Shown here in pieces: positions 2,851-34,101 of a DNA stretch of 36,312 nucleotides; the first letter of the stretch is position 1, and each line of letters starts with the position of its first letter. The DNA is taken from contig JAIPGO010000035.1 of the NCBI GenBank assembly GCA_021736135.1, positions 1 to 36,312 of the forward strand, given 5' to 3'. The notes under the pieces were generated by a model. That model did no database searches. It was not told where the DNA came from and saw only the letters and a list, made by a program, of their open reading frames with translations. This DNA is from Candidatus Cloacimonadota bacterium (GTDB taxonomy: Bacteria; Cloacimonadota; Cloacimonadia; Cloacimonadales; TCS61). A program made the position numbers and the translations under genes.

Positions 2851-3345
2851 ATGAAGGCAATGAAAAAACTACTATTTTCGTTTATCTTTCTCTATTTGCT
2901 CTGGCTGCTGCTAACGGGTACTAACACTCAGGAACTGCTTCTGGGTGCAGGTGTATCTCTATTGATCAGTCTGCTATTTTATAAAAAGCTGGGTATATAT
3001 GGAGAATTCCGGGTGAGTCTGAAAGCGTTCATTTACGCCATCATCTACGTATTCGTTTTTCTGGGAGCGCTGATCAAGTCTAATCTTGATGTGGCCTTCC
3101 GGGTGATCCAGCCCGTGATACCCATAAATCCGGGGATCGTGCTGGTTAAAACCACATTGAAAAGTCCCCTGGCAAGACTGATCCTGGCGAATTCCATCAC
3201 TCTAACTCCGGGAACATTGACCGTGGAGACAGCCGGAGAGGATTTTTATATTCACTGGATAGACGTGAAAGCGGCAGATGAATCAGGCGCTACGGAAGCA
3301 ATCGTGAGAAACTTTGAAAAATACCTGGAGGTGATCTTTGGTTGA
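2851..3345 (+). CDS. mnhE: MnhE/MrpE-like subunit of an Mbx-type membrane complex
   Basis: This 164-residue membrane protein is the first gene of the 11-gene operon. The hydrophobic N-terminal half has about three membrane segments (roughly 8-25, 28-48, 60-80). The cytoplasmic C-terminal half carries the family signature region around VLVKTTLKSPLARLILANS and ITLTPGTLTVE, which identifies PF01899 MnhE. In Mrp antiporters and in MBH/MBX complexes this subunit belongs to the cation/proton antiporter module. The ATG at 2851 has GGGAG eight bases upstream; a second in-frame ATG four codons later is possible. It overlaps mnhF by 8 bp, a sign of translational coupling. Confidence 0.9.
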   Translation: MKAMKKLLFSFIFLYLLWLLLTGTNTQELLLGAGVSLLISLLFYKKLGIYGEFRVSLKAFIYAIIYVFVFLGALIKSNLDVAFRVIQPVIPINPGIVLVKTTLKSPLARLILANSITLTPGTLTVETAGEDFYIHWIDVKAADESGATEAIVRNFEKYLEVIFG

Positions 3346-3598
3346 GATAATTTATAATATTGCGGGTATCATAGCCTTAGCCGGCATAGTTATTGCCTTT
3401 ATCCGGCTGCTATTGGGACCGACTGCTGCCGACCGTACGGTTGCCCTGGATGCCATGACCATTATCACGATATCATTGATCGCCTGGCTGGGCTATATGC
3501 TGGGCAGAAAAATCTACCTGGATGTGGCAATGGTTTATGCGCTGATAAGTTTCATCGGCGTGGTTGCCATTGCGCGTTACCTGGAAAGGGGGCTATAA
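3338..3598 (+). CDS. mnhF: MnhF/MrpF-like subunit
   Basis: This small (86 aa) protein has three predicted membrane segments. It carries the MrpF signature GPTAADRTVALDAM followed by LDVAMVYALISFIGVVAIARY, typical of PF04066. The start is a TTG at 3338, chosen because no ATG lies in frame nearby and because GGAGGTGATC, an ideal complement of the 16S rRNA 3' end, ends one base before it; the GGAGG core is 5 nt from the TTG. The start lies inside the end of mnhE. In MBX/MBH-type complexes MrpE, F and G homologues form part of the Na+/H+ antiporter module that converts proton movement to a sodium gradient. Confidence 0.9.
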   Translation: MVEIIYNIAGIIALAGIVIAFIRLLLGPTAADRTVALDAMTIITISLIAWLGYMLGRKIYLDVAMVYALISFIGVVAIARYLERGL

Positions 3599-3934
3599 AT
3601 GGCTATGGCAGGAGCAATTATCAGTCTTATTGGCGCGGTATTTCTCTTTCTGGGAGCTTTAGGCGTGCTGCGCATGCCGGATATATATAACCGCATGCAG
3701 GCAGGCACGAAAGCGACGACCCTGGGTTCCATATTATTTTTACTTGGTCTGGGACTGGGGCACTTTCATAAGGTATGCATCTGCAAAACTATCATACTGG
3801 TGCTATTCATCATATTTACCAATCCCATATCTTCGCATGCCCTGGCACGGGCTGCGCATTATATAGGCATCCGGTTGACCAAAAAGACAGTACTTGATAA
3901 ACTTCATGAGGAAGACAGGGAGGAACTGGTATGA
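3599..3934 (+). CDS. mnhG: MnhG/MrpG-like subunit
   Basis: The protein is 111 aa with three membrane segments. The signature RMPDIYNRMQAGTKATTLG after the first helix is diagnostic of PF03334 PhaG/MnhG. Its ATG follows the mnhF stop directly, with AAGGGGG as ribosome-binding site. The TGA stop overlaps the ATG of the next gene (ATGA). The C-terminal tail (about 86-111) is charged and probably cytoplasmic. It is a partner of MnhE and MnhF in the antiporter half of the complex. Confidence 0.9.
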   Translation: MAMAGAIISLIGAVFLFLGALGVLRMPDIYNRMQAGTKATTLGSILFLLGLGLGHFHKVCICKTIILVLFIIFTNPISSHALARAAHYIGIRLTKKTVLDKLHEEDREELV

Positions 3935-4185
3935 TATTAACAATAATAATAGTGCTGGGCATATTAATGCTGGCAGCAGCATTTATGGCGCTATACCTGA
4001 AGGATCTGCTTTCGGCGATCATTGCCAGCGGTGCCATAAGCCTGATGGCAAGCGTAATCTATATTATACTGGCAGCACCTGATGTGGCTATGACGGAAGC
4101 AGCGATCGGTTCGGGACTGACCACGATAGTATTCCTATATGCATTGCACCTGGTGAGAAAAAAGCAGGAGGATAAGCATGATTAA
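3931..4185 (+). CDS. mbxD: DUF4040 (MbhD/MbxD-like) subunit
   Basis: This short (84 aa) protein has three hydrophobic helices and carries APDVAMTEAAIGSGLTT, the hallmark of the DUF4040 segment (PF13244). In classical Mrp antiporters that segment forms the end of MrpA; in MBH and MBX complexes it is a free-standing subunit, as here. The acidic and polar residues of this motif are thought to take part in the ion path. It starts in ATGA overlap with mnhG and its end overlaps the next gene by 8 bp. Confidence 0.85.
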   Translation: MILTIIIVLGILMLAAAFMALYLKDLLSAIIASGAISLMASVIYIILAAPDVAMTEAAIGSGLTTIVFLYALHLVRKKQEDKHD

Positions 4186-4864
4186 GAGATTTTTTTCACT
4201 TATCTTCGTAGTCCTGCTGGCACTGGTATTTCTGCCATTGGTCACGGAGATAAAACCGCTGAGCGAATTAGGAATGACATCTGCCAAATATGCCGAAGAC
4301 GGAGCTGCGGAACTGGGAGCAGCAAACCTGGTGACATCCGTGGTGGTAACCTATCGCGGGTTGGATACACTGGGCGAAGTAACCGTGCTTTTTATCACGA
4401 CAGCCGGAATAGGCTTTATGCTGCGGCGTAAAACAATTTTACCGGAAAAAAAGAGAAGAGCTTCCGAAATTTTAAAAAGCGGAACCTCCTTCCTTCTGCC
4501 TTTGATCATACTATTTGGCGTATATATTTTCGTGCATGGTCATCTCACGCCGGGTGGCGGCTTTCAGGGCGGAGTAGTTATCGCCTCTGCCATTGTGCTT
4601 TTGATGCTTTCGGATATTAATATGCATCCTGATCATAATATACTCAACTGGCTGGAATCGCTATCAGGTGCCTTTTACGTGATAATGGGCATTTTGGGAT
4701 TAATACTTGCCGGCGGATTTCTGGATAACCGGTTTCTGCCATTGGGAGAATTCGGGAAAATATTCAGTGCCGGTGCAATACCTGTTATATATTCACTCAT
4801 CGGCTTGAAAGTGGGTGCGGAACTGGTGGGCATACTCAATAAACTGGGACGGGAGGACAAATGA
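4178..4864 (+). CDS. mnhB: MbhE-MnhB-type subunit (two family segments in one protein)
   Basis: The protein has 228 residues and two parts. Residues ~1-85 match the MbhE segment that in Mrp systems sits at the C-terminus of MrpA: AANLVTSVVVTYRGLDTLGE followed by VTVLFITTAGIGFML. Residues ~98-225 are a MnhB domain (PF04039), with HGHLTPGGGFQGGVV as signature, then four membrane helices. Archaeal MBH encodes these as separate MbhE and MbhF genes; here they are joined. The ATG lies 8 bp inside the DUF4040 gene, and the TGA overlaps the next ATG. It is part of the cation-translocating module. Confidence 0.87.
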   Translation: MIKRFFSLIFVVLLALVFLPLVTEIKPLSELGMTSAKYAEDGAAELGAANLVTSVVVTYRGLDTLGEVTVLFITTAGIGFMLRRKTILPEKKRRASEILKSGTSFLLPLIILFGVYIFVHGHLTPGGGFQGGVVIASAIVLLMLSDINMHPDHNILNWLESLSGAFYVIMGILGLILAGGFLDNRFLPLGEFGKIFSAGAIPVIYSLIGLKVGAELVGILNKLGREDK

Positions 4865-5214
4865 CAATAATCACCATACTGGGTTTTCTCCTGATCATAA
4901 TCGGTCTTTGGGGCATGCTGACGCGCAAACATCTCTTCCGCATAATACTGGGCTTTTCTATAATTGATACCGGGATCCATTTAGTAATAGTATCACTGGG
5001 TTATATAAAAGGCAGAACGGCACCTATTTTTGATGCAGACCTCTCCCCTATTGATGCCATCAACCGGATCGTTGACCCGATACCCTCGGCACTGGTATTA
5101 ACGGCAATCGTGATTGGACTGGCAGTAACAGCTTTGATGCTTGTTTACGTAATCCAGATGCACCGCCACAAAGGTTCGCTGGAAATCAGCGATTACGAGG
5201 AGTTGAAATGGTAA
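4861..5214 (+). CDS. mnhC: MnhC/NuoK-like subunit
   Basis: The protein is 117 aa with three membrane helices, homologous to MrpC and complex I NuoK (PF00420). Visible family features are GLWGMLTRKHLFRIILGFSI near the start and DPIPSALVLTAIVIGLAVTA in the third helix. In NuoK and MrpC, glutamates in the membrane helices link the proton channels. It overlaps mnhB by 4 bp and the double antiporter gene by 7 bp, so translation is coupled throughout. Confidence 0.92.
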   Translation: MTIITILGFLLIIIGLWGMLTRKHLFRIILGFSIIDTGIHLVIVSLGYIKGRTAPIFDADLSPIDAINRIVDPIPSALVLTAIVIGLAVTALMLVYVIQMHRHKGSLEISDYEELKW

Positions 5215-8200
5215 ATCCTATCTATATATTCGTTATTGCTTTATTTTCAGCTTTTCTGCTGCCGGTGATCGATAAACTGGGGCGCAAAGTAACGCTAGGA
5301 GTCTTTTATCTTTCCTTAACCGCCATATTTGCTGTGACCTTATTATGGTTTAGAGCTTTCGGCGAAGGGGCATTAATAGAAAACATCTTCACAGCGGGAT
5401 CGCTGCCGCCCTTTTCCATCAACCTAAGAATGGGCACAATTGAAGCTTTCATTATGCTGTTCGTCAATTTTGGCGCTTTGCTGGGAGCAATATATCTCTA
5501 TGGCAAGCTGCTGGAAAATAAAGTTTATGCCCTGATGCTCTTCCTCACCTTGATAATGGGAGTGAACGGATTGATCATGACGCGAGATATTTTTAATATA
5601 TTCGTGTTTCTGGAAATCACCTCGATATCATTATATGCCCTGATCGGGATCAAACAGGATGCCAGATCACTGGGCGCAGGTTTTAAATACATAATAGCCG
5701 GTGGACTGGCCTCGGCCTTTCTGCTGCTGGGAATTATATATGTATACCGGATAACCGGAAATCTGAATCTTGATCTGATCATCAGCGAGAATCCTCTGCT
5801 GCTATCCAAGGGCGGATTAATTGCCTTATTCCTGGTAGTGGTGGCATTTCTTATTGAGCTCAAGCCCTGGCCGGCCAATGGCTGGGCGCTGGACGTTTAT
5901 GAAGCTGCGGAACCCGGGATCAGCGCCATGGTAGCCAGCCTGGTGGCTGCCGGCATGGTCTTTGTATTCTATAAATTTATTCCCCTGCTGCCCCATAGCT
6001 GGCATGGAATGCTGATACTTTTTGGCATGCTGACCTTTGTTTTTTCCAATCTTACGGGTTTAAAACAGAAAAATGCCAGAAGACTGCTGGGATATTCCTC
6101 TATAGCGCAGATGGGACTGCTGATGGCAGTTTTGCTGTTGGTACGCCGTTTTAATGATGCCATGGACATACGCTATGCCCTTTCGGATATTGCTGCCGCA
6201 TTATTTGTAAATCATTTTCTGGCCAAAGCCGGGCTTTTCTGGCTTTCTGGAATTATTAATAAAGAAAAAGCGCGCGACTGGTCATTTAATAAGCAGCCGG
6301 TGCTGGTATTACTATTTGCGGTATTTATATTTGCCCTGGTGGGCTTACCGCCTTTCCCGGGATTCTGGGCCAAATGGACACTGATCACCAAGCTGGCGCA
6401 ATATAATATGATCGGCTGGATAGTACCCATTATAATCGGGTCTTTGCTGGAAGCTGCTTATCTACTCCGCTGGTTTGGAGCCACAATAAAAAGAGAACAG
6501 ACGGAACAGGTGATCATCCCCAGATATAAGATTCTTCCTCCACTGCTGGCGGCAATCGTGCTGGTGATCATATTTCCTTCTTTTGCCCCCTATATGACGG
6601 GGATGAAAACGATGTTCTTTTTCCCGCTGCTGGCAGCAGCAGTGCTCTGGCTGCTGGACGTTATGCCGGAAAGAATGCGGGGAATGGTGATGATATTGAT
6701 CCTGGCTGCCTTCGGCTGGTATATATATCCTCTGGCTAAGGGCATTGTGCTGATCTTTGAATTTATGTTCATAGCCGGCGGCATAGTTATTTCCCTTGCC
6801 AGCCTGAATTCAGCCAGACCGAAGCAGGGGTATTGGGAATTTCTGGTGATGCTGATCATGTCACTAGCTTTGATCCCGCTGGCAAAATCTTCCATGGAAT
6901 TCTTTCTTGCCTGGGAATTTATGACCGTGAGTTCCTGGCTTTTGATTTTACGCGGGAAAAACGGGGAGAAACCGGCACTTACTTATATCATGTTTTCTTT
7001 GGGTGCTGCGCTGCTGATCTTAACGGCGTTTGCTTTAAGCTTTGCCGAAACTGGCGAACTGGGACTGGTGCTTTTAAGCAATCTGAATATTTATGCGATC
7101 CCGGTATATATATTACTTGCCCTGGGATTCCTGGTGAAAGCAGCAGCAATGGGAGTTCATATCTGGCTGCCGGGAGCTTATTCGGAAGCGGAAGATGAAG
7201 TAACACCGATATTTGCCGGCATGATGAGCAAGATCAGTCTCTGGGGATTTATATTGCTTTTCGGATATATGGGGAATAAAGTTCTGGGCATATTCGAGCT
7301 GCCGGTACTGCTGGGCTGGATCGGCGTATTTACTGCTTTCTTTGGCGCGCTGATGGCTGTATTTCAGGAAGACATCAAATATCTGCTGGCATATTCATCT
7401 ATGAGCCAATTAGGATATATGATCCTTTCCGTTTCACTGCTCAGTCATCTGGGCTGGACCACTGCGCTTTATATGTCCGTGACGCATCTCTTTTTTAAAG
7501 GCATGCTCTTTCTGGCAGTGGCAGGCATCGTATCCCGCATCGGGACAACAAAGATGTATGAAATGGGCGGTCTGATCAAGAAGATGCCGGCATCTTTCAT
7601 CTCAGTATTAATTGCTATTATTGCCGTTTCAGGCGTACCGCCGCTTTCGGGATTTGGCGGAAAGTGGTTATTATATACAGCCCTGATAGAAAAAGGCTGG
7701 TACCTGCAGGCAGGACTTTCCTTCTTTGCCGGAGCAATAGCCTTTCTTTATCTTTTCCGCCTGATACATACCATCTTTTTAGGACAGCTTAAAGCTAGAT
7801 TCCGGGAAGTGAAAGAAGCTTCGCTCTGGTATATCGTACCCCAGTTCATCTTTGTGGGTGCGATCATGGCGATCTCGATGTTTCCCAATCTCATCCTGAA
7901 ACCGATAATGGCGGCAGTGGAAACGCAGTTCCCTTCACATGTGAACTGGGATGGCTATACTGTGATCACAGCTCTGGGTTACTGGAACGGTAATGCCGTG
8001 ATGATGATCACCATGGGCGTATTTATGGTACCGCTCATCTGGCTGCTGGTGAGAGTTAATATGGTGCAGAAAGTAGAGCAATTTAACATCGTATATGCTG
8101 CAGAACGCCCTGACAGACCTGAAACTACTCACTTTGCCTATAATTTCTTTGCGCATTATCAAAAAGCCATAGGCTTCCTGGTCAAGGAACAGATCACAAA

Positions 8201-8339
8201 TTTCTGGAATTCCGTTAGTGAATGGTTCCATTCGCTCAGTGCAACATTCCGGCATATTTACACGGGAAACGGGCAGACTTATGCTCTGCATATAATTATT
8301 TATATCGTAGTATTATATTCTCTTCTGGGGGTGAAATAA
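5208..8339 (+). CDS. Fused double proton-pump subunit (MbxH-MbxH' / MnhD-MnhD type), 1043 aa
   Basis: Two complete antiporter-like subunits (PF00361) occur in one chain. The first half (~1-480) has the key Glu of TM5 at E136 (FLEITS) and the TM7 Lys at K219 in the conserved KPWPANGWALDVYEAAEP region. The second half (~510-1043) has E570 (AWEFMT) and K644 followed by HIWLPGAYSEAEDEVTP. Both halves keep the later His/Lys motif (HFLAKAGLFWL; THLFFKGMLFL), so both channels look competent. NuoL/M/N subunits and archaeal MbxH/MbxH' are normally ~480-600 aa and separate. The C-terminal ~100 residues have an amphipathic stretch and a final helix, perhaps a lateral anchoring helix. There is no frameshift, so this is one protein. 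It should pump two ions per turnover if both halves work. Confidence 0.9.
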   Translation: MVNPIYIFVIALFSAFLLPVIDKLGRKVTLGVFYLSLTAIFAVTLLWFRAFGEGALIENIFTAGSLPPFSINLRMGTIEAFIMLFVNFGALLGAIYLYGKLLENKVYALMLFLTLIMGVNGLIMTRDIFNIFVFLEITSISLYALIGIKQDARSLGAGFKYIIAGGLASAFLLLGIIYVYRITGNLNLDLIISENPLLLSKGGLIALFLVVVAFLIELKPWPANGWALDVYEAAEPGISAMVASLVAAGMVFVFYKFIPLLPHSWHGMLILFGMLTFVFSNLTGLKQKNARRLLGYSSIAQMGLLMAVLLLVRRFNDAMDIRYALSDIAAALFVNHFLAKAGLFWLSGIINKEKARDWSFNKQPVLVLLFAVFIFALVGLPPFPGFWAKWTLITKLAQYNMIGWIVPIIIGSLLEAAYLLRWFGATIKREQTEQVIIPRYKILPPLLAAIVLVIIFPSFAPYMTGMKTMFFFPLLAAAVLWLLDVMPERMRGMVMILILAAFGWYIYPLAKGIVLIFEFMFIAGGIVISLASLNSARPKQGYWEFLVMLIMSLALIPLAKSSMEFFLAWEFMTVSSWLLILRGKNGEKPALTYIMFSLGAALLILTAFALSFAETGELGLVLLSNLNIYAIPVYILLALGFLVKAAAMGVHIWLPGAYSEAEDEVTPIFAGMMSKISLWGFILLFGYMGNKVLGIFELPVLLGWIGVFTAFFGALMAVFQEDIKYLLAYSSMSQLGYMILSVSLLSHLGWTTALYMSVTHLFFKGMLFLAVAGIVSRIGTTKMYEMGGLIKKMPASFISVLIAIIAVSGVPPLSGFGGKWLLYTALIEKGWYLQAGLSFFAGAIAFLYLFRLIHTIFLGQLKARFREVKEASLWYIVPQFIFVGAIMAISMFPNLILKPIMAAVETQFPSHVNWDGYTVITALGYWNGNAVMMITMGVFMVPLIWLLVRVNMVQKVEQFNIVYAAERPDRPETTHFAYNFFAHYQKAIGFLVKEQITNFWNSVSEWFHSLSATFRHIYTGNGQTYALHIIIYIVVLYSLLGVK

Positions 8340-8340
8340 C

Positions 8341-9258
8341 ATGGAACACGGACTCTTAATAAGTATCATATATGCCTTTATATCGCTGAGTGTTGCCACG
8401 ATCTGGGGACTGCTGCTGGGCGGGATCATGATGAAAGTGGTAGCCAGGGCACATGGGCGCTTTGGACCTCCTTTCTGGCAGCCGATCATTGACATCATCA
8501 AGAATAATGCCCGCAGGACTTCCATAAGTCATGGGATCATGTATTTTCTGGGACCGGTCTTCCGTATTGCCGGAGGAATGGGTACATTTCTTTTCATCCC
8601 GTTCATTTATGGTTCCATGGTTTTTGGCAATTTCAGTTTCGCCGGAGATCTTTTTCTGGTGATGTATTTCATCTTTTTCGGGCAACTGGGCATGGCTCTG
8701 GGAGCCGGAGAAAGCGGACATCCCTACAGCGCCATCGGCGTGGCACGCGGTTTGAGCCAGATGACGGCTTTTGAACTGCCTTTTGCTCTTTCAATCATTT
8801 CAATTGTCATCCAGTATGGCACGCTGAATATCACCAGCATCGTGGCTGCCCAGCAGGGCGGGATATTGCACTGGACGCTGTTTACCAATCCGCTGGCTAC
8901 AATAGCAGCCCTGATCGCTTTGCAGGGAATGAATATGCATAATCCCTTCAGTATCGTGATCGCACCTCAGGAAATACCGATCGGACCACCCACGGAATAT
9001 CACAGTAATTTTCTGGGTCTGCTGCAGACGAACCGGGGACTCTTCAATATTGCCAAGCTGGCGCTTTTTATGAATCTCTATTTCGGCGGCGCAACCAATC
9101 TCTTCAGCATGCTCATTAAAACCTTTGGCATCTATATGATCACGGTGATTGTCGGAGCATCTTTTCCACGCTTCCGCACCGAACAATCCATCCGCTTTTT
9201 CCTGGGTGTGCCTACGGTTATCGGGATACTGGCTGTGCTCGTTACCGGATATTTTTAA
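8341..9258 (+). CDS. mbxM: NuoH/MbhM-like membrane subunit linking redox and pump modules
   Basis: The protein is 305 aa with about eight membrane helices and belongs to the complex I subunit 1 family (PF00146). It has the first-loop motif ARAHGRFGPPFWQPIIDIIK, RGLSQMTAFELPFALSI in the middle, and a long acidic loop EIPIGPPTEYHSNFLGLLQ, the region that contacts the NuoB/NuoD-like subunits. In complex I and MBH this subunit transmits redox-driven change to the antiporter modules. Its ATG is one base after the previous stop, with a GGGGGTGA ribosome-binding site inside the preceding gene. Confidence 0.92.
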   Translation: MEHGLLISIIYAFISLSVATIWGLLLGGIMMKVVARAHGRFGPPFWQPIIDIIKNNARRTSISHGIMYFLGPVFRIAGGMGTFLFIPFIYGSMVFGNFSFAGDLFLVMYFIFFGQLGMALGAGESGHPYSAIGVARGLSQMTAFELPFALSIISIVIQYGTLNITSIVAAQQGGILHWTLFTNPLATIAALIALQGMNMHNPFSIVIAPQEIPIGPPTEYHSNFLGLLQTNRGLFNIAKLALFMNLYFGGATNLFSMLIKTFGIYMITVIVGASFPRFRTEQSIRFFLGVPTVIGILAVLVTGYF

Positions 9259-9267
9259 GGAGAATAT

Positions 9268-9891
9268 ATGGAAAATAAAGATAAAATGAAACTGGCAAAC
9301 GACGGACTGCCGGAACACGAAAAACCGCTTTTCTGTGATGCGCGGCCCCAGACTTATAAGCCACTGGGTAAATACGTGGAGAAATTCCTGAACTGGGCAC
9401 GTGCCAATTCACTCTGGATATTAGGTTACGGAACCGGCTGCGGTGCCATTGAACTGCGTCCGCTGATGACAGCACGTTTTGATATGTTCCGCTGGGGTCT
9501 GGCCCCCAGACCGACACCAAGGCAGGCAGGCGTATTCGTTATCGGCGGCTATATGAGCGTGAAAACCCTCAAGCGCGTTATCCGCAGTTATGAGCAGATG
9601 CAGGGACCAAAATTCGTTATCGCCCTGGGAAGCTGCACCATCAATGGCGGGATGTATTGGGATAGTTATAACACCATTAACAGGCTGGATCATTATCTGC
9701 CTGTGGATATCTATATCACGGGCTGCATGCCGCGTCCGGAAGCGCTGATCGCCGGATTTAATAAACTGAAAGCAATGATCAAAGCCCAGCAGACTGACGG
9801 GCAGAATGAATATGCCAGAAATTTCGACTGGTATAAGGCAAATCAGAAAAAGATCGTAAAAGACTGGAATATGCCGGATTATAACTGGTAG
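9268..9891 (+). CDS. mbxJ: NuoB/MbhJ-like Fe-S subunit with only three cluster cysteines
   Basis: The protein is 207 aa, soluble, of the NADH-quinone oxidoreductase 20-kDa family (PF01058). NuoB binds cluster N2 with a tandem Cys-Cys and two further cysteines; MBH uses Cys-x-x-Cys plus two. Here the first motif is GTGCGAIE, with Cys58 but Gly59 in place of the second cysteine. The others are Cys123 (GSCTINGG) and Cys153 (GCMPRPEA). Another cysteine, C23, lies in the N-terminal extension. Three-cysteine coordination leaves one iron open, as described for the proximal cluster of Pyrococcus furiosus MBS. The ATG has AAGGAG upstream. Neighbours are the NuoH-, NuoC- and NuoD-like genes. Confidence 0.9.
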   Translation: MENKDKMKLANDGLPEHEKPLFCDARPQTYKPLGKYVEKFLNWARANSLWILGYGTGCGAIELRPLMTARFDMFRWGLAPRPTPRQAGVFVIGGYMSVKTLKRVIRSYEQMQGPKFVIALGSCTINGGMYWDSYNTINRLDHYLPVDIYITGCMPRPEALIAGFNKLKAMIKAQQTDGQNEYARNFDWYKANQKKIVKDWNMPDYNW

Positions 9892-9901
9892 GAGATATTA
9901 T

Positions 9902-10441
9902 ATGAAGGAATTTATAGAAAAATTGATAGATAAGTATGCCATTAAGCCGATGCATTCCCGGCATGCCAATCAGGTGTTTCTTACCATTAAGCAGGACAGA
10001 CTGCCTGATGCCTTGACCTGGCTGCGTGATTTCGCCGGTTATACGCATCTGGCTTTCATTACTGCCGTTGATTATCCGGAAATTGAAAAGATCCAGCTTA
10101 CCTATATGGTGCATAACTACCAGGAAAACACCGATATTGGATTGCGCGTGCTTCTGGACCGGCGTCAACCCGAAATGATCTCCGTACATCATCTCTGGCA
10201 GCACGTTGCCACCTATCAGCGGGAACTGCATGAAATGTTCGGCATTGATTTTCCCGGGAGTCCCCGGCTTAAGGAGAATTTTGCCCTGGAAGGCTGGCAG
10301 GATGTTCCGCCGATGCGCCGCGACTTCGACACGAAGGAATATGCGGAGAAAACCTATTTTCCACGTCCCGGTCGTGAAACACATGACCCCAGAGAATATA
10401 TGAAACAGAAACTGTATCCCGACCCTAAGGAGGAGAAATAG
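9902..10441 (+). CDS. mbxK: NuoC/MbhK-like subunit
   Basis: The protein is 179 aa, of the complex I 30-kDa family (PF00329). The signature is near residues 100-150: RELHEMFGIDFPGSP, then LEGWQDVPPMRRDFDTKEY, matching the NuoC region that precedes the NuoD fold. It is a structural, cofactor-free subunit that supports the NuoD/MbhL-like subunit. GGAGATATTAT precedes the ATG. The ribosome-binding site of the next gene (AAGGAGG) lies within its last codons. The C-terminal ~40 residues, rich in Arg, Pro and Lys, extend beyond the core. Confidence 0.88.
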   Translation: MKEFIEKLIDKYAIKPMHSRHANQVFLTIKQDRLPDALTWLRDFAGYTHLAFITAVDYPEIEKIQLTYMVHNYQENTDIGLRVLLDRRQPEMISVHHLWQHVATYQRELHEMFGIDFPGSPRLKENFALEGWQDVPPMRRDFDTKEYAEKTYFPRPGRETHDPREYMKQKLYPDPKEEK

Positions 10442-11608
10442 ATGAAACAGGATAGAAGCAAATTTCCTCCCGTAGTTGACGGAAAATCACAATTCGATCT
10501 GGATTCAGGTAAATATATCAAGGTCTGGCAGGGACCCCAGCATCCGGGAGTAACCGGTAATATGGCGCTGGAACTGATCATTAGCGGAGATGAAGTAGTT
10601 GATCTTAAAACTCACGTCGGCTACCTGCACCGCGGTTTTGAAAAACTTATGGAACGCCGCCGTTATATTCAATGTTTCCCCATCGTCTGCCGCATCTGCG
10701 TACCGGAACCGGATACTAATGAATACCTGCTGGCGGCTGCTGCGGAAGAGCTTGCCGGCATAGAAATACCGGAAAAAGCGAAATGGCTGCGCACCTTGAC
10801 CCTGGAGCTATCGCGACTGGCAAGTTTTCTGATGTGGATCGGTGGTCAGGGCGGCGCTTTTGGAATGGGCACAGTAGCGCAATGGGCGATTGCCCAGCGT
10901 GATTTTGTGCTTGATCTTTTTGAAGAACTATCCGGTGGCCGCATATATCACATGTATATCATCCCCGGCGGCGTGCGCGATGACTTGCCACAAGGCTGGG
11001 ATAAACACCTGGAAGACGTATTGAAAAGAACAGAAAAACTGCTCAAAGAAATAGAAATAGTGCTTTTTAATAACGTGGTATTTAAGATGCGCGCTCAGAA
11101 CCTGGGCGTTATCACAACTGATATGGTGGATAAATATGGCATCGTGGGACCCAATGCCCGGGCAACCGGACTCAAGCGCGATCTGCGCAAAGATGAGCCG
11201 TACCTGGTTTATGATAAACTCGATTTCGAGGTGATCACCCGTGACTATTCCGATGCTTACAACCGCACTTACCTGCGCTGGCAGGAAATGTGGCAATCAA
11301 TTGACCTGATCAGACAGATAATGGCAAATATGCCGGCTGGAAACGATTATCACCATAATCTACCGAACGTGCTCAACTGGAAAATACCAGTGGGCGAAAC
11401 TTACGTGAAAGCAGAATCCACACGTGGCGAATATGGTTATTACATGGTTTCCGATGGCAGCGGCTATCCGCGCCGGGTTTACGTGCGCGGTCCCAGCTAT
11501 ACCCATGCTATGGTTCTGCTGGAACATCTGGCAGTGAACGTTAATATCGCAGATATGGCAGGACTGATGGTATCTCTGCATACCTATCCGCCGGAAATTG
11601 AGAGGTAA
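10442..11608 (+). CDS. mbxL: NuoD/MbhL-like large subunit lacking the NiFe-binding C-terminal CxxC
   Basis: The protein is 388 aa and similar to complex I 49-kDa and [NiFe]-hydrogenase large subunits (PF00346/PF00374): GPQHPGVTGNMALEL at the N-terminus and THVGYLHRGFEKLMERR, as in NuoD. Hydrogenases bind NiFe with two CxxC pairs. The N-terminal pair is present (C83 and C86, VCRIC), although the following His is absent (VPEPDTN). The C-terminal DPCxxC is replaced by HTYPPE at 380-385, ending in IER. NiFe therefore cannot be bound in the usual way, and the subunit should not evolve H2. Archaeal MbxL/MbsL is known to lack the full ligand set too. The start directly follows the mbxK stop. Confidence 0.9.
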   Translation: MKQDRSKFPPVVDGKSQFDLDSGKYIKVWQGPQHPGVTGNMALELIISGDEVVDLKTHVGYLHRGFEKLMERRRYIQCFPIVCRICVPEPDTNEYLLAAAAEELAGIEIPEKAKWLRTLTLELSRLASFLMWIGGQGGAFGMGTVAQWAIAQRDFVLDLFEELSGGRIYHMYIIPGGVRDDLPQGWDKHLEDVLKRTEKLLKEIEIVLFNNVVFKMRAQNLGVITTDMVDKYGIVGPNARATGLKRDLRKDEPYLVYDKLDFEVITRDYSDAYNRTYLRWQEMWQSIDLIRQIMANMPAGNDYHHNLPNVLNWKIPVGETYVKAESTRGEYGYYMVSDGSGYPRRVYVRGPSYTHAMVLLEHLAVNVNIADMAGLMVSLHTYPPEIER

Positions 11609-11612
11609 GTAA

Positions 11613-13388
11613 ATGAAATTAAAAGATTTTCTCTCCCCATTTTACGTCTGGAAACGGGCTTTTGATAAACCTTACACGACTCAGAAACCCCTGGAAGAAC
11701 GCCCCGGCGCTCCACGCTATCGAGGCTTTCACCAGAATGATATGGAAAAATGTATCGGCTGCGGTTCCTGCGAAACTATCTGCCAGAATGCAGCCATAGA
11801 TATGATGCCCGTGGAAGGCATAGAAACCACTTTTAAGGATAGCGGTCTGCGTCCCCGGATCGATTACGGACGCTGCTGCTGGTGTGCGCTCTGCGTGGAT
11901 ATCTGCACCACAGGTTCATTGAAGATGTCCAATGAATACATCTGGATCGATACTGATCCGGAAGTTTTCCGTTTCATTCCCGGGGCTATTGAGAAACCAT
12001 GGGATAACTTTGAAGAAGGTTACGCTCAGCATGAAAATTACACATTACTAAATCTTGATAGAATTGATATGAAAATGATGACGGCAGAGGAAAGTAAGCA
12101 GTCATTCCTGGAAATGGTGAAGGGCTACAGCAAAGCGGAAGCCATGAAAGAAGCGCAACGCTGTGTGGAATGTGGACTTTGCGTGGCATCATGTCCTGCT
12201 CATATGGATATTCCTCAATATATCAGTGCCATTCGAGACGACAATCTCGATGAAGCTTTACGCCTTTTGTATGCTACCAATCCCATGCCGGCGACCTGCG
12301 GACGAATATGCACTCATCTATGTGAAAGCGCTTGCTCCATTGGCGTTAAAGGTGAACCCCTCGCTATCCGCTGGCTCAAACGCTATATTGTTGACCAGAT
12401 AGAAGATTCAAAATTTAAAAGTATTCTACAGGATGAATTTAAACCTAATGGTAAAAAGGTTGCCATCATCGGTTCCGGACCCGGCGGATTAAGCGCTGCC
12501 TACTATCTGATCACCAGCGGCTATGCTGTTGATATTTATGAAGCCAGCGAACGCGCCGGCGGTATGATACGTTATGGAGTACCGGAATACCGTATGCCTT
12601 ATGATCAGCTTGATCAGGATGTGAACTATATTAAAGAACTAGGCGTGGAAATCAAGCTTAATAACCGGATAGGCAAAGATACACAATTTAAAGAGCTTTA
12701 TGAAAACTATGATGCTGTATTCTTTTCCACCGGGCTGGTCGATCCATATAAACTGGCAATTGAAGGTGAAGATCTGCCAGGAGTATTTTCCGGCTTGCAG
12801 ATCCTTGATGATGTGACCAAAGGTTTAAAACCGAAAATAGGCATGAAAACAGCTATAATCGGAGGCGGTAACGTTGCTATGGATGCTTCCAGAACTGCTT
12901 TGAGATTAGGCGCAGATGCTACAATTATCTACCGGAGACGTGAAGAAGATATGCCTGCTGATGAAGAAGAGATCCACGAGGCGCATCAGGAAAATGTTAA
13001 ATTTATCACCCAGGCAATACCTATAAAAATCGAGAAAACGGAAAATGGAAAACTGAAATTCTTCTGGAATAATTCTGAAATGGTTCAAAAGGAAGGAGCA
13101 TCCCGTCCCTCCCCCATTGCCATTGAAGGAGACATCGATTTTGTGGAAGTTGATTCCGTGATCTCAGCAATTGGTCAGGGAGCAGATTACTCCTTCCTTT
13201 CAGAAGAATACGAAAGCCAGATAAAATTCAAGAAAGGGAAAGTAATCATCAATGATCATGGTCAGACTACTAATCCTAAAATCTTTGCCGGTGGCGATAT
13301 TGCCAATCCCAAGGCAGATGCCATATCCGCTATTGCCGATGGACATAATGCAGCCCTTGGTATCGATAAATTCCTGAATAAGCAGTAA
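11613..13388 (+). CDS. MbxN-like ferredoxin subunit fused to a GltD/NfnB-type FAD-NADPH oxidoreductase
   Basis: This 591-residue fusion has three parts. Residues ~1-115 are an MbhN/NuoI-like two-cluster ferredoxin, with CxxCxxCxxxC at C47-C57 and again at C88-C98. Residues ~155-270 are the GltD N-terminal Fe-S domain, with C184-C194 (CVECGLCVASC) and C229-C241 (CGRICTHLCESAC). Residues ~280-590 are the two-Rossmann flavoprotein: an FAD motif GSGPGG at 287-292, and a second dinucleotide motif GGGNVAMDASRTALRLGA from about 417. The latter is followed by YRRREEDMPA (440-449), whose arginines fit NADPH. This would wire NAD(P)H through FAD and up to four [4Fe-4S] clusters to the complex. It is the last gene of the operon, 4 bp after mbxL. 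A related flavoprotein gene next to Mbx genes in Thermotoga is recalled, not checked. Confidence 0.9.
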   Translation: MKLKDFLSPFYVWKRAFDKPYTTQKPLEERPGAPRYRGFHQNDMEKCIGCGSCETICQNAAIDMMPVEGIETTFKDSGLRPRIDYGRCCWCALCVDICTTGSLKMSNEYIWIDTDPEVFRFIPGAIEKPWDNFEEGYAQHENYTLLNLDRIDMKMMTAEESKQSFLEMVKGYSKAEAMKEAQRCVECGLCVASCPAHMDIPQYISAIRDDNLDEALRLLYATNPMPATCGRICTHLCESACSIGVKGEPLAIRWLKRYIVDQIEDSKFKSILQDEFKPNGKKVAIIGSGPGGLSAAYYLITSGYAVDIYEASERAGGMIRYGVPEYRMPYDQLDQDVNYIKELGVEIKLNNRIGKDTQFKELYENYDAVFFSTGLVDPYKLAIEGEDLPGVFSGLQILDDVTKGLKPKIGMKTAIIGGGNVAMDASRTALRLGADATIIYRRREEDMPADEEEIHEAHQENVKFITQAIPIKIEKTENGKLKFFWNNSEMVQKEGASRPSPIAIEGDIDFVEVDSVISAIGQGADYSFLSEEYESQIKFKKGKVIINDHGQTTNPKIFAGGDIANPKADAISAIADGHNAALGIDKFLNKQ

Positions 13389-28025: not shown

Positions 28026-29810
28026 CTATTTCAATAGTAATAATTTCCGGATCTGCTGCTGATATTTCGTCTGCACCTGGCAGAAATAGACCCCTGATGC
28101 CTCAGTTGCAGCATCCCAGATATATCGATGATCACCGGCCTTGAATGATTTCTGAAGGATCAAACGACCTCTCAGATCGAAGATCTTCAAGATACCCGTT
28201 TCACCCGGCTCAATATGAAAACTTATCTCTGTTACAGGATTGAATGGATTGGGATAATTTCTCAGAAGCAAGTCAGCAGGTTCAATGATTTCAGAAACGT
28301 CATTTGACGTTGCCTGATAATAATATGCACCCATATCGCCTATGGTCGCATCATGATCATAAAAAAATGTTGCCGGATCACCCGCATCAATCGCCGGTGA
28401 TGTATTCTGCAAATGATAATCACCGGTTGCCGGATCAAGAAAAACCGGGTCAAGAAACAGGTTATAATAAGTATCACAGGCATCACCGTTATTGTTAAAA
28501 TTATTCAAATCTCCCCAGTTTGCCGGCAGTTCACCGGTTGCCGCCTGTGTATTTAACCAGAATAAGTTGTAGGAAAGCTCAGGCAATTCCTGCTCCATTA
28601 ATACTCCTGTTTCATTACCGTAAAATATATTATCCAGTATAATATCCAGATTTCCGTTATTGTAATGAAGTCCCTGACCATTATAGCTTATCGTGTTTTT
28701 ATATATATCAATCGCTCCGGAATCATTATATATACCTGCTTCTCCGCTCCACTCGATCACATTATAGCATATCTCTCCAAGGGCCTGATATCCCGTGGTT
28801 GACAGATATATCCCATGACTGCTGTTCCCGGAAAAAGCATTATTGCAGATAACTGCTGCCACATTTTCCAGACATTTAAGCCCCGTGCCGTTCTCTATTA
28901 ACTGATTGCCGCTGATAAATGGTAATAAAACTGCCGCGCTGCTTTCCTTCCAGATTTCTATTCCGTCTTCCTCATTACCGCTTATTACATTATCAATTAT
29001 CGTTAAACTCTGAGGATTGACTATCTTGATCCCGTATTGACCATTGTCAGATAAATTGCTTCCACTTATCTCAATAATATTACCGGAACTACTGCTGATT
29101 GCCCCGGTTATATTATTATGAATTTCACTGCCATGAATATATAGTGAAGCACTGTAACTGCCACGTACTCCATACCAGTTATTATTATAAATGTTACATC
29201 CTTCCACCACAGGAGCAGCGCAATTGTAGGCATATACTCCCACGTTCTTATCTGTAATAACCGTGTTAATGATCTCCGGTGAGGTGTTGTTACAGATTAC
29301 TCCCCATTCACTTTCACCCTTGAGATGGGCATTTGTGATCTGCACTATCGCACTTTCTGCGCAGTATATACCACAATAACTGTTATCACAAATTGTAACA
29401 TTACTGATTGCTACCGAAGCACCATTTATGGATCTGATACCATGCTGATTATGATCAATACGTGCATAAGATATCTCATTATTGATTGATGCACTATCCT
29501 CAAAAGAAATACTGATCCAGTCACCAGTTTCGGGATCGAATTGACCCGAGCTGAAATATATAGAATCCGTCTCCGTCCCGACAGCATGCAATGTCCCCAG
29601 AACCAATAATGACCAGGAACCCATAAAATCCACTCTCACACCCGGTTCCAGGGTTAGCGTATTGCCAATTGCAATTTCAATATTGCCCACAACTTCATAA
29701 GGATTGTTAACCGGCGACCATACCGTATCCATATTTATCTGACCCGCCACTTCCACTGCCACCAGTCCGTAAACAGCCAGCAGCATTATGCTCATTATTA
29801 CTATTCTCAT
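28026..29810 (-). CDS. Secreted right-handed beta-helix protein with type-A T9SS-like sorting tail
   Basis: The protein is 594 aa. The signal peptide MRIVIMSIMLLAVYG... is cleaved near VEVAGQ. Residues ~50-430 are parallel beta-helix repeats of NosD/pectate-lyase type: many NN-G-I-V coils such as NNNWYGVRGSYSASLYIHGS and SGNEEDGIEI. Residues ~430-500 have LDPVFLDPATGDYHLQ, followed by SPAIDAGDP, a common ending of such helices. The C-terminal ~80 residues are a sorting domain: NYPNPFNPVTEISF, IFDLRGR, WDAATEASGVYFCQV, LLLLK. The substrate is unknown; it is probably cell-surface or secreted. AAGGAG precedes the ATG. Confidence 0.87.
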   Translation of the reverse strand: MRIVIMSIMLLAVYGLVAVEVAGQINMDTVWSPVNNPYEVVGNIEIAIGNTLTLEPGVRVDFMGSWSLLVLGTLHAVGTETDSIYFSSGQFDPETGDWISISFEDSASINNEISYARIDHNQHGIRSINGASVAISNVTICDNSYCGIYCAESAIVQITNAHLKGESEWGVICNNTSPEIINTVITDKNVGVYAYNCAAPVVEGCNIYNNNWYGVRGSYSASLYIHGSEIHNNITGAISSSSGNIIEISGSNLSDNGQYGIKIVNPQSLTIIDNVISGNEEDGIEIWKESSAAVLLPFISGNQLIENGTGLKCLENVAAVICNNAFSGNSSHGIYLSTTGYQALGEICYNVIEWSGEAGIYNDSGAIDIYKNTISYNGQGLHYNNGNLDIILDNIFYGNETGVLMEQELPELSYNLFWLNTQAATGELPANWGDLNNFNNNGDACDTYYNLFLDPVFLDPATGDYHLQNTSPAIDAGDPATFFYDHDATIGDMGAYYYQATSNDVSEIIEPADLLLRNYPNPFNPVTEISFHIEPGETGILKIFDLRGRLILQKSFKAGDHRYIWDAATEASGVYFCQVQTKYQQQIRKLLLLK

Positions 29811-30025
29811 TAAACAAACTCCTTCAAACCTAAGGAGTGTATGTCAAATTCAATACCCCAGAGTGTCAAGCTTGATAAAAAAACAGATCAGGATTCACAG
29901 GATTTAAGATATTTACAGGATTAAGAAAAAAAATCAAATTCATCTTTCTTCTCTTAAAAAAATCCTGCTAATATCTTAAATCCCGAAAATCCTGATTCAG
30001 ACAGTTTATCCTCCAAATCCTGATA
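29811..30025. repeat. Intergenic region with AATCCTG-type inverted-repeat element, copy C (29886-29999)
   Basis: The left arm 29886-29925 (GATCAGGATTCACAGG...) pairs with the right arm 29961-29999 (AATCCTGCTAATATC...TCCTGATTC). The loop is an AT-rich 35 bp. The rest, 29811-29885, holds the upstream region of the beta-helix gene, including two TTGACA-like boxes on the minus strand (29868-29873 and nearby 29850) but no good -10. A truncated AATCCTGATA follows copy C, against the stop of the GLUG gene. Confidence 0.7.
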
Positions 30026-32044
30026 CTATTTGACCATCATCATCTTGCCAGTTCTAACCACCTCATCTGCCTTGATCATATAAAAATATATCCCCGATGC
30101 CATCCCCTCTCCTGACCAGACAACTGTATGCTTTCCTCTATGGATTTCTTTGTAGTGCTTATCCCAGACTCTTTGTCCTTTGATATTATAGACAGCCAAA
30201 CTCAAATTGTCCGCATCTATTCCTAAGTCGAAACAAATATTAGTCTCAGGATTGAACGGATTCGGATGATTTTCAATTTCTAATTTTACATTTTCATCAA
30301 TACTCACCGGAAATTCTATTTCATAGATATAAGGATACCCCTCATTGATCTCAACATTCATATCCCATATATCGTTAATTCCATTCTCACTCTCTCCAAT
30401 AAAATCCCAGCAAATATCAGTATAAGTGCTCTTCATCAGCATCTCTGCCGTCGTTGAGCCGATTAAATTTATTATTGTGCCCTCATAATCATAACCAATA
30501 CCATCTGTCTGCCCCGAGGTCTCTAAATTCCAAACACAGCTTTCTATGACCTCATAATTCGCTCCTATCAATCCACCAACATTGAATATTCCTGCCACAC
30601 AACCAATGGCATAGCTTTCTCTGATCGTAGTTTCTTCATAATTAGCTCCCACCAAACCTCCAACATTACTTTCACCAGTAACATTGCCCGTTGCATAGCT
30701 GGTGCTGATTAAGGAATTGTCAGAATTAAATCCCACCAAACCGCCAATATTAATGTCTCCTGTCACACTGACAGTGGCATAACTTGCTTTGATTGAAGAA
30801 TTAAAAGAGTTCCTTCCTACCAAACCACCAACCTGTCTTAAGCCATTCACACTACCAGTAGCATAGTTAGCGCTAAGTTTGGATGCATGATTAAACCCCA
30901 CTAACCCTCCGATAAATACCTCTCCTGTCACATTTACATTAGTTACACCCAAAGCTTCTATTACCGCTTCAAATGTATCTCCAAAAAGTCCAATTCCCCC
31001 CATCTCTGGTATATTTACAAATAATCCGTCTATACAATGGTTTCCTCCATTAAAAGTTCCTGCAAAGTATGGGATAAAGAAATTAGGATGACCTGTTAGA
31101 TCAATGTTGGAGGTTAACAGAAAACTGTCTTCAGATTCTTGACCAAATGCCAATAACTTCTCAAAATCATTAAAATCGTTGATAAGATAATTTTCCCCAT
31201 CATAAGATAAATAATCTGTAATTTCCAGGCTCTTATTGTTATTTATCCAGTCATTGTATAGTTCACTGGTTAGTGCTCCTATTGATATTAAATGCTGATT
31301 GTTTATCAAAACAGAATCATAATCATAATAGCTCTCACTGATTGGTGACCACCAGCAACCTCCAACTAAACCGCCAATATATAAGGCTCCAACCACATTT
31401 CCACCTTCATAGCTTAAACTGTGAAGGCTTCCCTGATTATACCCTACTACACCACCGACAAATTCATTTCCTGTAACATTGCCTTCGACATAGCTGGCGC
31501 TTATCCTGGATCCAAAATTCTCTCCCACCAAACCACCTACATCATCATTTCCTGTCACATTACCGGTAACGTAGCATTCGCTAAGAGTCGATTTCCAGGC
31601 AAGATACCCCACCAAACCTCCAACCTGATCTTCTCCTGTCACTCTAATATCGGTAAGCCCAAGAGCTTCTATGACTGCCCCATCGGTATATCCAAAGAGA
31701 CCTATTTGTTCTGTATGAGGTCTATTGATACATAGACCTTCAATTATGTGATTACTACCATTGTAAGAGCTTGAAAAGGGTCCTTTGGAATGATACCCTC
31801 CTATTGGAATAAAACCAGCACCCTCATTCCAGTTCTGCGTCTCACCTGCATCAATATCAGCAGTCTGCAGAAAATAATATATACTGTCCCAGACAGCCTC
31901 AGTAGTACTCAGCCAAAGCAGATTATCCAGGCTGGCAATTAAAAACGGATCATTCTCCGTCCCGGAACCTTCTGCCGGAGTACCATCAGCCTGCAGGCTG
32001 ATAAATGCAAAGAAAATAAATACTAAAACGTAAATTTTACTCAT
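30026..32044 (-). CDS. Secreted GLUG-repeat protein with T9SS-like sorting tail
   Basis: The protein is 672 aa. Signal peptide MSKIYVLVFIFFAFISLQA. Then GTPAEGSGTENDPFLIASLD, a common opening of these proteins. Two GLUG-repeat blocks (~150-250 and ~375-510) repeat the pattern GGLVG...SSIKASYATGSVTG about every 26-30 residues. Around 300-370 the layout starts again (NDFEKLLAFG...GGNHCIDGLFVNIPEMGGIGL), so the protein has an internal duplication. The C-terminus has NHPNPFNPETNICF, YNIKGQRVW, WSGEGMASGIYF and MMMVK. GLUG domains occur in bacterial surface and adhesion-like proteins. GGAGGAG precedes the start. It is 50 bp from the next gene upstream and probably co-transcribed. Confidence 0.87.
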   Translation of the reverse strand: MSKIYVLVFIFFAFISLQADGTPAEGSGTENDPFLIASLDNLLWLSTTEAVWDSIYYFLQTADIDAGETQNWNEGAGFIPIGGYHSKGPFSSSYNGSNHIIEGLCINRPHTEQIGLFGYTDGAVIEALGLTDIRVTGEDQVGGLVGYLAWKSTLSECYVTGNVTGNDDVGGLVGENFGSRISASYVEGNVTGNEFVGGVVGYNQGSLHSLSYEGGNVVGALYIGGLVGGCWWSPISESYYDYDSVLINNQHLISIGALTSELYNDWINNNKSLEITDYLSYDGENYLINDFNDFEKLLAFGQESEDSFLLTSNIDLTGHPNFFIPYFAGTFNGGNHCIDGLFVNIPEMGGIGLFGDTFEAVIEALGVTNVNVTGEVFIGGLVGFNHASKLSANYATGSVNGLRQVGGLVGRNSFNSSIKASYATVSVTGDINIGGLVGFNSDNSLISTSYATGNVTGESNVGGLVGANYEETTIRESYAIGCVAGIFNVGGLIGANYEVIESCVWNLETSGQTDGIGYDYEGTIINLIGSTTAEMLMKSTYTDICWDFIGESENGINDIWDMNVEINEGYPYIYEIEFPVSIDENVKLEIENHPNPFNPETNICFDLGIDADNLSLAVYNIKGQRVWDKHYKEIHRGKHTVVWSGEGMASGIYFYMIKADEVVRTGKMMMVK

Positions 32045-32094
32045 AATGTTCTCCTCCTAAGAATTAATGACTAAAATCCATTTCATTTTTCAGT

Positions 32095-34101
32095 TTATTT
32101 CAGTAAAATAACTTTCTTACTTGCACTGATCCCAGCAGCTTGAATGTGCAATAGATATATTCCACTTCCACAATGTACCGCATTCCAGACTATATTATGT
32201 TCACCGGCAGTAAGATAACCTTCAACCAATGTTTCCACTTTCTGACCTTTCAAGTTATAGATATTCACCAGCACTTCACTACTTTCCTGCATCTCAAAAC
32301 AGATTTTAGTCTCCGGATTAAAAGGATTCGGATAATTTTCAATTTTCAATTTTCCATTTTCAATCACATTCTCTCCACCATCAAGATTGGGAATAATGAT
32401 CTCAATTATCTCAGATTCCTGATTTGACGAATAATATGCACTTACACCAGCAATATATTCATTATTGGGATTTATATTTGAACTCAGATCATATATCTGC
32501 TCCACCGTCTGACCAACTAATTCATTATCCAGATAAATGTTATAGTATTCAAAATGACGAGCATACACATCCCACGAAAGTATGCCCGTTCCCTGGTCAT
32601 ATTCCAGATTCACCGGAGGATTAATAAGTTCTGCCAGTACCACGTTTAAAACCAGACAATCCATTATCAAGATATCAGTTTCCAGATAAGTTTCATAACC
32701 GGGAAATATCACCTCCAGATCATAGATACCCAGAAATACATCTTGCCAGTAAACTGCTCCACCTGCAACTATTCCATCATATAAGTGAATGCCATCCTGA
32801 TTACATAGATTGACCTCTGCCCCATCTGTGCTGTCGCCACTATTACTGGTTATATTGATAGTTACCGGAGCAACGACGCCAAAATAGATAATGTTAGAAA
32901 ATGCTGGTTCTGACTGTAATCCCCCTTCTGATAATACCCTTACGCAATATAAATATTCTCCGGGTACTGTTACTTCAGGCCAGGTAACATCCTCATAAGT
33001 TGTATCCTGGATGACAAATGCGATAAAGTCCCAGTCCTCATAATTTGCCTGATCTTCTGCAAAACCTCTGTATATATTATACCAGGCTAAATTTACTATT
33101 TCCGGTGAATGCCAGGTCAGCCAGGCATTGCCATCATGATTCTCTATTACTGTTACATCATAAGGCGGGAAAAACAGAATAACTAACATGCCCTCATAAG
33201 TAACCGTATCCTCATAAATATCAATATTGTCTGCAAATAATGAAAAATCCTCTAATTCCGCTGTAATATCATAATTACTCTTCCATACATCTGAAATAAC
33301 GCATTCACCGATTTCATCTGTAACTGCTTCGTAAGATGGATAATTCCCATCAGGATCCGGTTCCGTGGAATTAAGCATAACCACTGCCCCCTCAGGTATA
33401 GCTCCCGTATTGGTTGTAAAACTTAGCTCAAGTGTTGCCAGCATATCTTTTCCCAGCCAGTTACTGAATGCTGCATCTGATAGCACATTATTCATATATT
33501 CAGCCTTAACGGCATATCGATAAACTCCACTATCCATTGTTTCCCAGCCTGGATCATTGTAAAACGTGTCTGATATTCCTTCAGCAACCAAGATCCAGTT
33601 ATCTTCATTCTCTTCATCTCCCAAAACCAGGAGGTAGAGATTGTAGCCGTTAACTAATCCCTGCTCTGGACTTTGCCAGGTGATTTCAGCTACAGTTTCA
33701 TATTCGTTCTGAACAGCAACCACATCATAAGCAGGAAATGTAATTTGATTCAATATTATATCACCCAGATCAGTATCATCAGCCCCGATCACTGCTTCCC
33801 CAGTAAACACCTGGTAATCTTCTGCCACTATAACCAACTCATAAGTATTATTAGAATTAACATTATCGATCATGAAATAACCATCTTCATCAGTTATTCC
33901 CGTATATGTTCCCATTCCCGTTAATGTTACTTCTGCCTCGGCAATTCCAATTTCAGGAAAATCAGATCCAACTACACGACCTGTTACTTCTACTTCCGGA
34001 GCCGGCTGTCGAGAATATGCCTGCTCAGTCTGGTTAGATGCATTGGCGATTGAATTGAATAGAAAAATCATAAACAACAGACAAATTGATTTTCTTTTCA
34101 T
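32095..34101 (-). CDS. Secreted carboxypeptidase-regulatory / FN3 multi-domain protein with sorting tail
   Basis: The protein is 668 aa. The signal peptide begins MKRKSICLLFMIFLFNSIANA. Residues ~35-115 form a carboxypeptidase-regulatory-like beta-sandwich (VTGRVVGSDFPEIGIAEAEV, DEDGYFMI). Then come alternating fibronectin-III-like domains (AEITWQSPEQG, AWLTWHSPEIVNLAWYNIYRG, GILSWDVYARHFEYYNIY) and two more regulatory-like segments (~220-310 and ~410-480). The tail is IENYPNPFNPETKICF, YNLKGQKVE, VWNAVHCGSGIYLL and VILLK. It has no catalytic motif. It is probably a surface or extracellular structural protein. The linker before the tail (ENGKLKIEN) is coded by a low-complexity run. Confidence 0.85.
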   Translation of the reverse strand: MKRKSICLLFMIFLFNSIANASNQTEQAYSRQPAPEVEVTGRVVGSDFPEIGIAEAEVTLTGMGTYTGITDEDGYFMIDNVNSNNTYELVIVAEDYQVFTGEAVIGADDTDLGDIILNQITFPAYDVVAVQNEYETVAEITWQSPEQGLVNGYNLYLLVLGDEENEDNWILVAEGISDTFYNDPGWETMDSGVYRYAVKAEYMNNVLSDAAFSNWLGKDMLATLELSFTTNTGAIPEGAVVMLNSTEPDPDGNYPSYEAVTDEIGECVISDVWKSNYDITAELEDFSLFADNIDIYEDTVTYEGMLVILFFPPYDVTVIENHDGNAWLTWHSPEIVNLAWYNIYRGFAEDQANYEDWDFIAFVIQDTTYEDVTWPEVTVPGEYLYCVRVLSEGGLQSEPAFSNIIYFGVVAPVTINITSNSGDSTDGAEVNLCNQDGIHLYDGIVAGGAVYWQDVFLGIYDLEVIFPGYETYLETDILIMDCLVLNVVLAELINPPVNLEYDQGTGILSWDVYARHFEYYNIYLDNELVGQTVEQIYDLSSNINPNNEYIAGVSAYYSSNQESEIIEIIIPNLDGGENVIENGKLKIENYPNPFNPETKICFEMQESSEVLVNIYNLKGQKVETLVEGYLTAGEHNIVWNAVHCGSGIYLLHIQAAGISASKKVILLK

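Follow-up and report, generated by a model that had tools for sequence, protein, structure and literature searches.

The membrane-bound sulfane reductase and its relatives

The membrane-bound sulfane reductase (MBS), which is described as driven by ferredoxin, has been put forward as a connection between Mrp antiporters, membrane-bound hydrogenase (MBH), and complex I. In MBS-type complexes, electrons from ferredoxin enter through the MbsN subunit, and the proximal [4Fe-4S] cluster, which has three Cys ligands (MbsJ C28, C93, and C123), is the proposed sulfane-reducing site; MbsJ C25 lies beyond coordination distance and is dispensable (PMC7684303). Among flavoproteins of the GltD type, StnC has an FAD reported to be nonbifurcating, and its Lys170 touches the FAD-proximal cluster at the position that a Glu ligand occupies in NfnB (PMC10482914). 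The GltD modules of StnC (8oh5) and of NfnA from the T. sibiricus NfnABC complex (9n5u) are joined to a NuoG-like domain and feed a soluble NuoF/HydB-type partner, and NfnB/NfnL of NfnAB, with its proximal Glu and its NfnA partner, is bifurcating. A protein that joins an MbsN-type ferredoxin to a GltD-type flavoprotein is likewise already catalogued, as NCBIfam NF010590 (PRK13984, "putative oxidoreductase"), so that both the fused protein and the type of complex treated here are known. A search of the open-access literature gave no account of what this fusion does, of an MBS fed by NAD(P)H, or of the division of the fusion proteins into the two sequence types reported below.

An MBS-type operon in a member of the Cloacimonadota

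The window, a 36,312-nucleotide stretch of contig JAIPGO010000035.1 from a Candidatus Cloacimonadota bacterium (GCA_021736135.1), contains a plus-strand operon at positions 2851 to 13388. The Mrp-like MbsA-G set comes first: MnhE/MbsA-type (2851-3345), MnhG/MbsC-type (3599-3934), and MbsG/MnhC/NuoK-type (4861-5214) subunits recognized by domain search, together with MrpF/MbsB-type (3338-3598; PF04066), MbhD/MbsD-type (3931-4185; PF13244), and MbsE-type (4178-4864; MbhE plus MnhB) subunits. Two antiporter-like pumps of the NuoN/NuoM type, MbsH and MbsH', follow in a single protein of 1,043 residues (5208-8339), and then an MbsM/NuoH-type membrane anchor (8341-9258; NADHdh), an MbsJ/NuoB-type subunit (9268-9891), an MbsK/NuoC-type subunit (9902-10441; Complex1_30kDa), and an MbsL/NuoD-type large subunit (10442-11608). 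The last gene (11613-13388) encodes the ferredoxin-flavoprotein fusion. Genes 3' of the operon, including those for a LysM protein, a 7TM-HD protein, and YbeY, appear unrelated. Farther along the window, a gene cluster at 28026 to 35696 encodes secreted proteins whose features include type IX-like C-terminal sorting domains, GLUG motifs, and a NosD-like beta-helix.

Every subunit that was searched against solved structures had the P. furiosus MBS (6u8y) as its best match, with E values of 1.2e-43 for MbsH (chain H), 6.9e-57 for MbsH' (chain X), 1.3e-62 for MbsJ (chain J), and 3.4e-91 for MbsL (chain L), and Pfam recovers equivalents of the other subunits. The residues of the proximal cluster agree. 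Cys is present at the MbsJ C28, C93, and C123 positions in all 73 NuoB-type homologues, the window included, while position 25 is Gly in 70 of the 73 (as in the window) and position 29 is Gly in every one, which excludes both the vicinal Cys pair of complex I and the CxxC of MBH. In the MbsL/NuoD-type subunit, the quinone-site His and Tyr are replaced by Thr and Val, respectively, and no MBS-type homologue retains them, the replacements being mostly Thr and Val. The large subunit reads RICVPEPD and has no C-terminal CxxC, so that, unlike the large subunit of group 4 NiFe hydrogenase (MBH), it lacks the four NiFe-ligating Cys; the NiFe motifs (RICG-C and the C-terminal CxxC) were found only in the hydrogenase encoded elsewhere in the same genome. 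Cys occupies the MbsL C85 position in 67 of 85 homologues, and the C385 position is Tyr in 48 (among them the window) and Cys in 37.

The core subunits share common ancestry with NuoI, NuoB, NuoD, and NuoH of respiratory complex I, but the window has no NuoEFG module. Active-site residues rule out a plain complex I and absent ligands rule out a NiFe hydrogenase; by these sequence criteria, the operon encodes an MBS-type complex. The preliminary description had assigned the complex to the Mbx type. The kinship to Mbx/MBS-type complexes stands, but the 6u8y matches and the three-Cys site narrow the type to MBS, a sulfane reductase signature that the description had missed.

Three differences from P. 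furiosus MBS are set within this shared framework: the C-terminal FAD/NADPH dehydrogenase of the GltD type on MbsN, the fusion of the pump subunits, and the substitutions MbsJ C25 to Gly and MbsL C385 to Tyr. Among 54 homologues with fused pumps, both halves keep the Glu of TMH5, the Glu/Lys of TMH7, and the Lys of TMH12, with Arg in place of the last in the second half of 7, and neither MbsH K250 nor two central His residues are conserved in this set. The pumps are also fused in most relatives; they are separate genes at three loci (L026, L111, and L112), which are also the most divergent operons.

Elsewhere in its genome, the organism encodes an Rnf complex and a StnC-like protein of 1,123 residues. 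Another contig (C81; locus L036) carries a group 4 NiFe hydrogenase with an intact signature (RICGIC and DPCYCC). This is a second Mrp-linked complex, and its unfused ferredoxin subunit provides a natural internal control. A canonical complex I is not seen in this genome, because no further 49-kDa-type subunit was found, and neither this genome nor the control genomes gave a match over the cut-off for CoA-disulfide reductase.

A ferredoxin-flavoprotein fusion with four predicted clusters

The fusion gene starts 4 nucleotides past the stop of the nuoD-like gene (11608) and forms a single open frame of 591 codons. As the preliminary description had it, the product combines a two-cluster ferredoxin of the MbsN/NuoI type (residues about 1 to 115), a GltD-type Fe-S domain with two further clusters (163 to 265), and a two-Rossmann FAD/NADPH unit (281 to 590), and Pfam agrees (ferredoxin dicluster, 46 to 101; Fer4_20, 163 to 265; Pyr_redox_2, 281 to 568). 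The "MbxN-like" reading of the N-terminal domain also holds up, its best match among solved structures being chain N of 6u8y (MbsN; E value of 3e-24). NF010590 has the same domain order and matches the protein over its full length (residues 2 to 591; profile positions 7 to 609 of 611), with an E value of 8e-218 and a score of 724.5 bits that lies under the curated cut-off of 946 bits.

The cluster Cys residues are C47, C50, C53, C57, C88, C91, C94, and C98 in the ferredoxin domain and C184, C187, C190, C194, C229, C233, C237, and C241 in the GltD domain, and each of the 16 is retained in 91 or 92 of 92 homologues. Together they would form the ligand set for four clusters between the FAD and the MbsJ cluster, a cofactor content predicted from the Cys pattern. 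An AlphaFold2 model built with 84 aligned homologues is confident (pLDDT of 91.9 and pTM of 0.85 for the whole model). A break between residues 115 and 155 had been named as a possible weak point; this junction is unbroken in all aligned homologues and is modeled as an ordered linker with a mean pLDDT of about 84 to 92. Because ligands and junction are kept across the 92 homologues and the model is confident, the fusion is neither a chance join nor a frameshift or assembly artifact.

In sequence rankings, the GltD part is closest to T. sibiricus NfnA (9n5u), then Thermotoga maritima NfnL (4ylf), the C. saccharolyticus NfnABC (9bov), and StnC (8oh5); by fold, P. furiosus NfnI L ranks first. The fold-search matches listed are to the GltD part, and the whole ferredoxin plus GltD unit is covered by none of the top 50. 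Beside the FAD-proximal cluster, Lys256 is Lys in all 92 homologues and in T. sibiricus NfnA, and the same position is Glu in both NfnL proteins. The window protein thus resembles StnC and T. sibiricus NfnA in its GltD module, differing in that it retains more cluster Cys (184, 187, and 229) and is attached to a membrane pump, and it has Ile200 at the position of StnC C114. With NfnB/NfnL, it has the fold and the FAD and NADPH sites in common.

Distribution and gene neighborhoods

Full-length homologues of the fusion occur in 42 of 125 Cloacimonadota genomes, the nearest named relative being a Cloacimonadota MAG (L037) with 85% identity. Outside this phylum, the gene is spread over about a dozen phyla, with named records from Spirochaetota, Bacteroidota, Chlorobiota, Neomarinimicrobiota, Pseudomonadota, Acidobacteriota, Aminicenantes, Calditrichota, Fermentibacterota, Delongbacteria, Myxococcota, and Halanaerobiales (Bacillota). 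Of the 14 control genomes, Thermotoga maritima alone had a match at an E value of 1e-150 or lower, and this match is full length and over the NF010590 cut-off. The novelty implied for the architecture was therefore overstated, since it is catalogued as PRK13984, present in T. maritima, and widespread.

The preliminary description had proposed looking for the same domain order beside Nuo-like genes in other genomes, and it is found widely: an MbsL/NuoD-type gene lies directly upstream of the fusion gene at 85 of 91 loci and 0.6 to 1 kb upstream at 3, and at the remaining 3 the fusion gene begins at a contig edge. Across the Cloacimonadota genomes, the fusion is listed in 42, an MbsJ-type NuoB in 41, and both in 39; several genomes with either gene alone are incomplete or have the locus near a contig end.

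Genes after the fusion differ among homologues (CBS, dihydroorotate dehydrogenase-like, rubrerythrin-like, ArsR-like, and unrelated), and no sulfur metabolism gene is fixed in the operon neighborhood of the window and the homologue loci. Since the downstream genes vary, conserved neighbors gave no lead to a sulfur substrate. In several phyla, a rubrerythrin/ferritin-like gene directly follows the fusion gene; Pfam confirms it at three loci (L048:2353-2805, L059:11801-12259, and L065:11788-12270), and similar open reading frames occur at L054:6492-6947, L058:7934-8380, and L060:7083-7559. In spirochaetes, the operon is followed by an ArsR-like regulator with two conserved Cys (L041:3459-3818, L043:11845-12216, L044:12049-12369, and L050:11730-12065), which may serve to sense redox state or persulfides.

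Two nicotinamide-site types

NADPH enzymes of the GltD fold carry a YRR motif after the second Rossmann strand. This motif is present in 39 of 92 homologues, among them the window protein, and also in the NADPH enzymes NfnL, StnC, and T. sibiricus NfnA; the other 53 homologues have mainly S/A/C-L-E and a short insert (SLE type). In a tree of 88 sequences, a single branch (SH-aLRT of 100) parts the two types, and YRR-type members have lower NF010590 scores than SLE-type members. As StnC, NfnA, and NfnL all carry YRR, the SLE type is probably derived, with YRR lost once in favor of an acidic motif, and because basic residues were lost and an acidic one was gained, the SLE type perhaps prefers NADH. 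Both types occur together in four genomes (G021, G028, G079, and G084) and in the isolate ZodW_Metabat.41, and the YRR and SLE operons of one genome form locus pairs such as L042/L072, L022/L027, and L044/L090. This co-occurrence suggests separate NADPH and NADH versions of the complex in the genomes that have both.

Proposed function and alternatives

We consider it reasonably likely (probability of about 0.6) that the 591-residue protein is the electron input subunit of an MBS-type pump that passes electrons from NADPH to sulfane sulfur or disulfides and moves ions, with the NADPH use, sulfane substrate, direction, and pumping all predicted from residue signatures and gene order. NADPH would reduce the FAD of the GltD-type C-terminal domain by hydride transfer, and the FAD would pass single electrons to the pair of GltD clusters, with Lys256 close to the proximal one, as in StnC. 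From there, the electrons would travel through both ferredoxin clusters of the MbsN-type N-terminal domain and on to the three-Cys [4Fe-4S] cluster of the MbsJ-like subunit. There, the S-S bond of polysulfide or of an organic disulfide or persulfide would be split, and the energy released would drive H+ or Na+ across the membrane by way of the Mrp-like arm. A direct wire from NAD(P)H to the pump, as first suggested for this fusion, is well supported by the covalent join, the shared operon, and the unbroken ligand set, and it is the simplest reading. Against the main reading stand the low free energy, the lack of a fixed sulfur gene nearby, the missing CoA-disulfide reductase match, and the nonconservation of MbsH K250 and the central His residues. 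From textbook potentials, we estimate that the step from NADPH to polysulfide yields about 60 to 110 mV; with only this much available, pumping could reach at most roughly one ion for every two electrons, and the reaction would be readily reversed.

Of the alternatives, an unlikely one is that the protein is a ferredoxin:NADP+ oxidoreductase, in which reduced ferredoxin docks on the N-terminal domain, the GltD part makes NADPH, and the membrane arm drives the reaction or is driven by it. The feeding of MBS-type complexes by ferredoxin through MbsN fits this arrangement, as does the proposal of ferredoxin as the donor for the T. maritima MBX (PMC9431562), and P. furiosus Mbx was earlier called a ferredoxin:NADP+ oxidoreductase, as cited in PMC6349859. 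However, the homologues fully conserve both the three-Cys site of MbsJ and the signature of the chamber, and a pure ferredoxin-to-NADP+ enzyme, having both partners at the entry arm, would leave the MbsJ site without use.

The same electron path could also run backward, with an ion gradient pushing electrons from sulfide or persulfide to NAD(P)+ and the resulting NAD(P)H serving biosynthesis or CO2 fixation. Given how close the potentials are, the reaction should be reversible, and close relatives of the fusion are found in Thiothrix caldifontis, Sedimenticola, a Chromatiaceae MAG, and a Thiosymbion ectosymbiont, taxa known for sulfur oxidation. In Endoriftia, moreover, a complex named "Mrp-Mbx" has coexpression neighbors in common with reductive TCA cycle genes (PMC11636981). 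The window organism, however, has redox machinery of the fermentation type (Rnf, the Stn-like protein, and the group 4 hydrogenase), and we regard the reverse mode as improbable.

An NAD(P)H-driven pump might instead use the same chamber for a final acceptor other than polysulfide, such as a disulfide in a protein or a small molecule, or some other oxidant. Although they fit MBS, the chamber residues leave the substrate undefined, and the absence of a conserved sulfur gene and the rubrerythrin-like or ArsR-like genes after some homologues accord with such an acceptor. To our knowledge, though, the only characterized enzyme with this three-Cys site cleaves sulfane sulfur, which makes a different acceptor rather improbable. 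Finally, bifurcation at the single flavin, as in NfnB, had been suggested earlier; bifurcation or confurcation there among NADPH, ferredoxin, and the complex would suit the shared GltD fold and the invariant R327 (the Arg contacting flavin N5 in NfnB, present in StnC too), but we judge it highly unlikely because Lys256 takes the place of the Glu ligand in every homologue, as in the nonbifurcating StnC, and the operon has no gene for an NfnA-like partner ([2Fe-2S] plus a second FAD) as second acceptor.

Implications for complex I-like pumps

Extending the main reading to the family gives a tentative picture, possible rather than probable, of a widespread quinone- and haem-free complex that couples NADPH (YRR type) or NADH (SLE type) to sulfane or disulfide chemistry with ion pumping. 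It would run forward in fermenters and backward, yielding NAD(P)H, in sulfur oxidizers; its nicotinamide preference would have switched once, and some genomes would retain both versions. An MBS that accepts electrons from NAD(P)H by way of a flavoprotein other than the one in complex I would mean that an NAD(P)H-driven, complex I-like pump was reached by an independent route, and it would call into question ferredoxin-fed models of bacterial MBX, for example, in T. maritima. It would also provide a quinone-free link between NADPH, sulfur, and ion gradients over about a dozen phyla.
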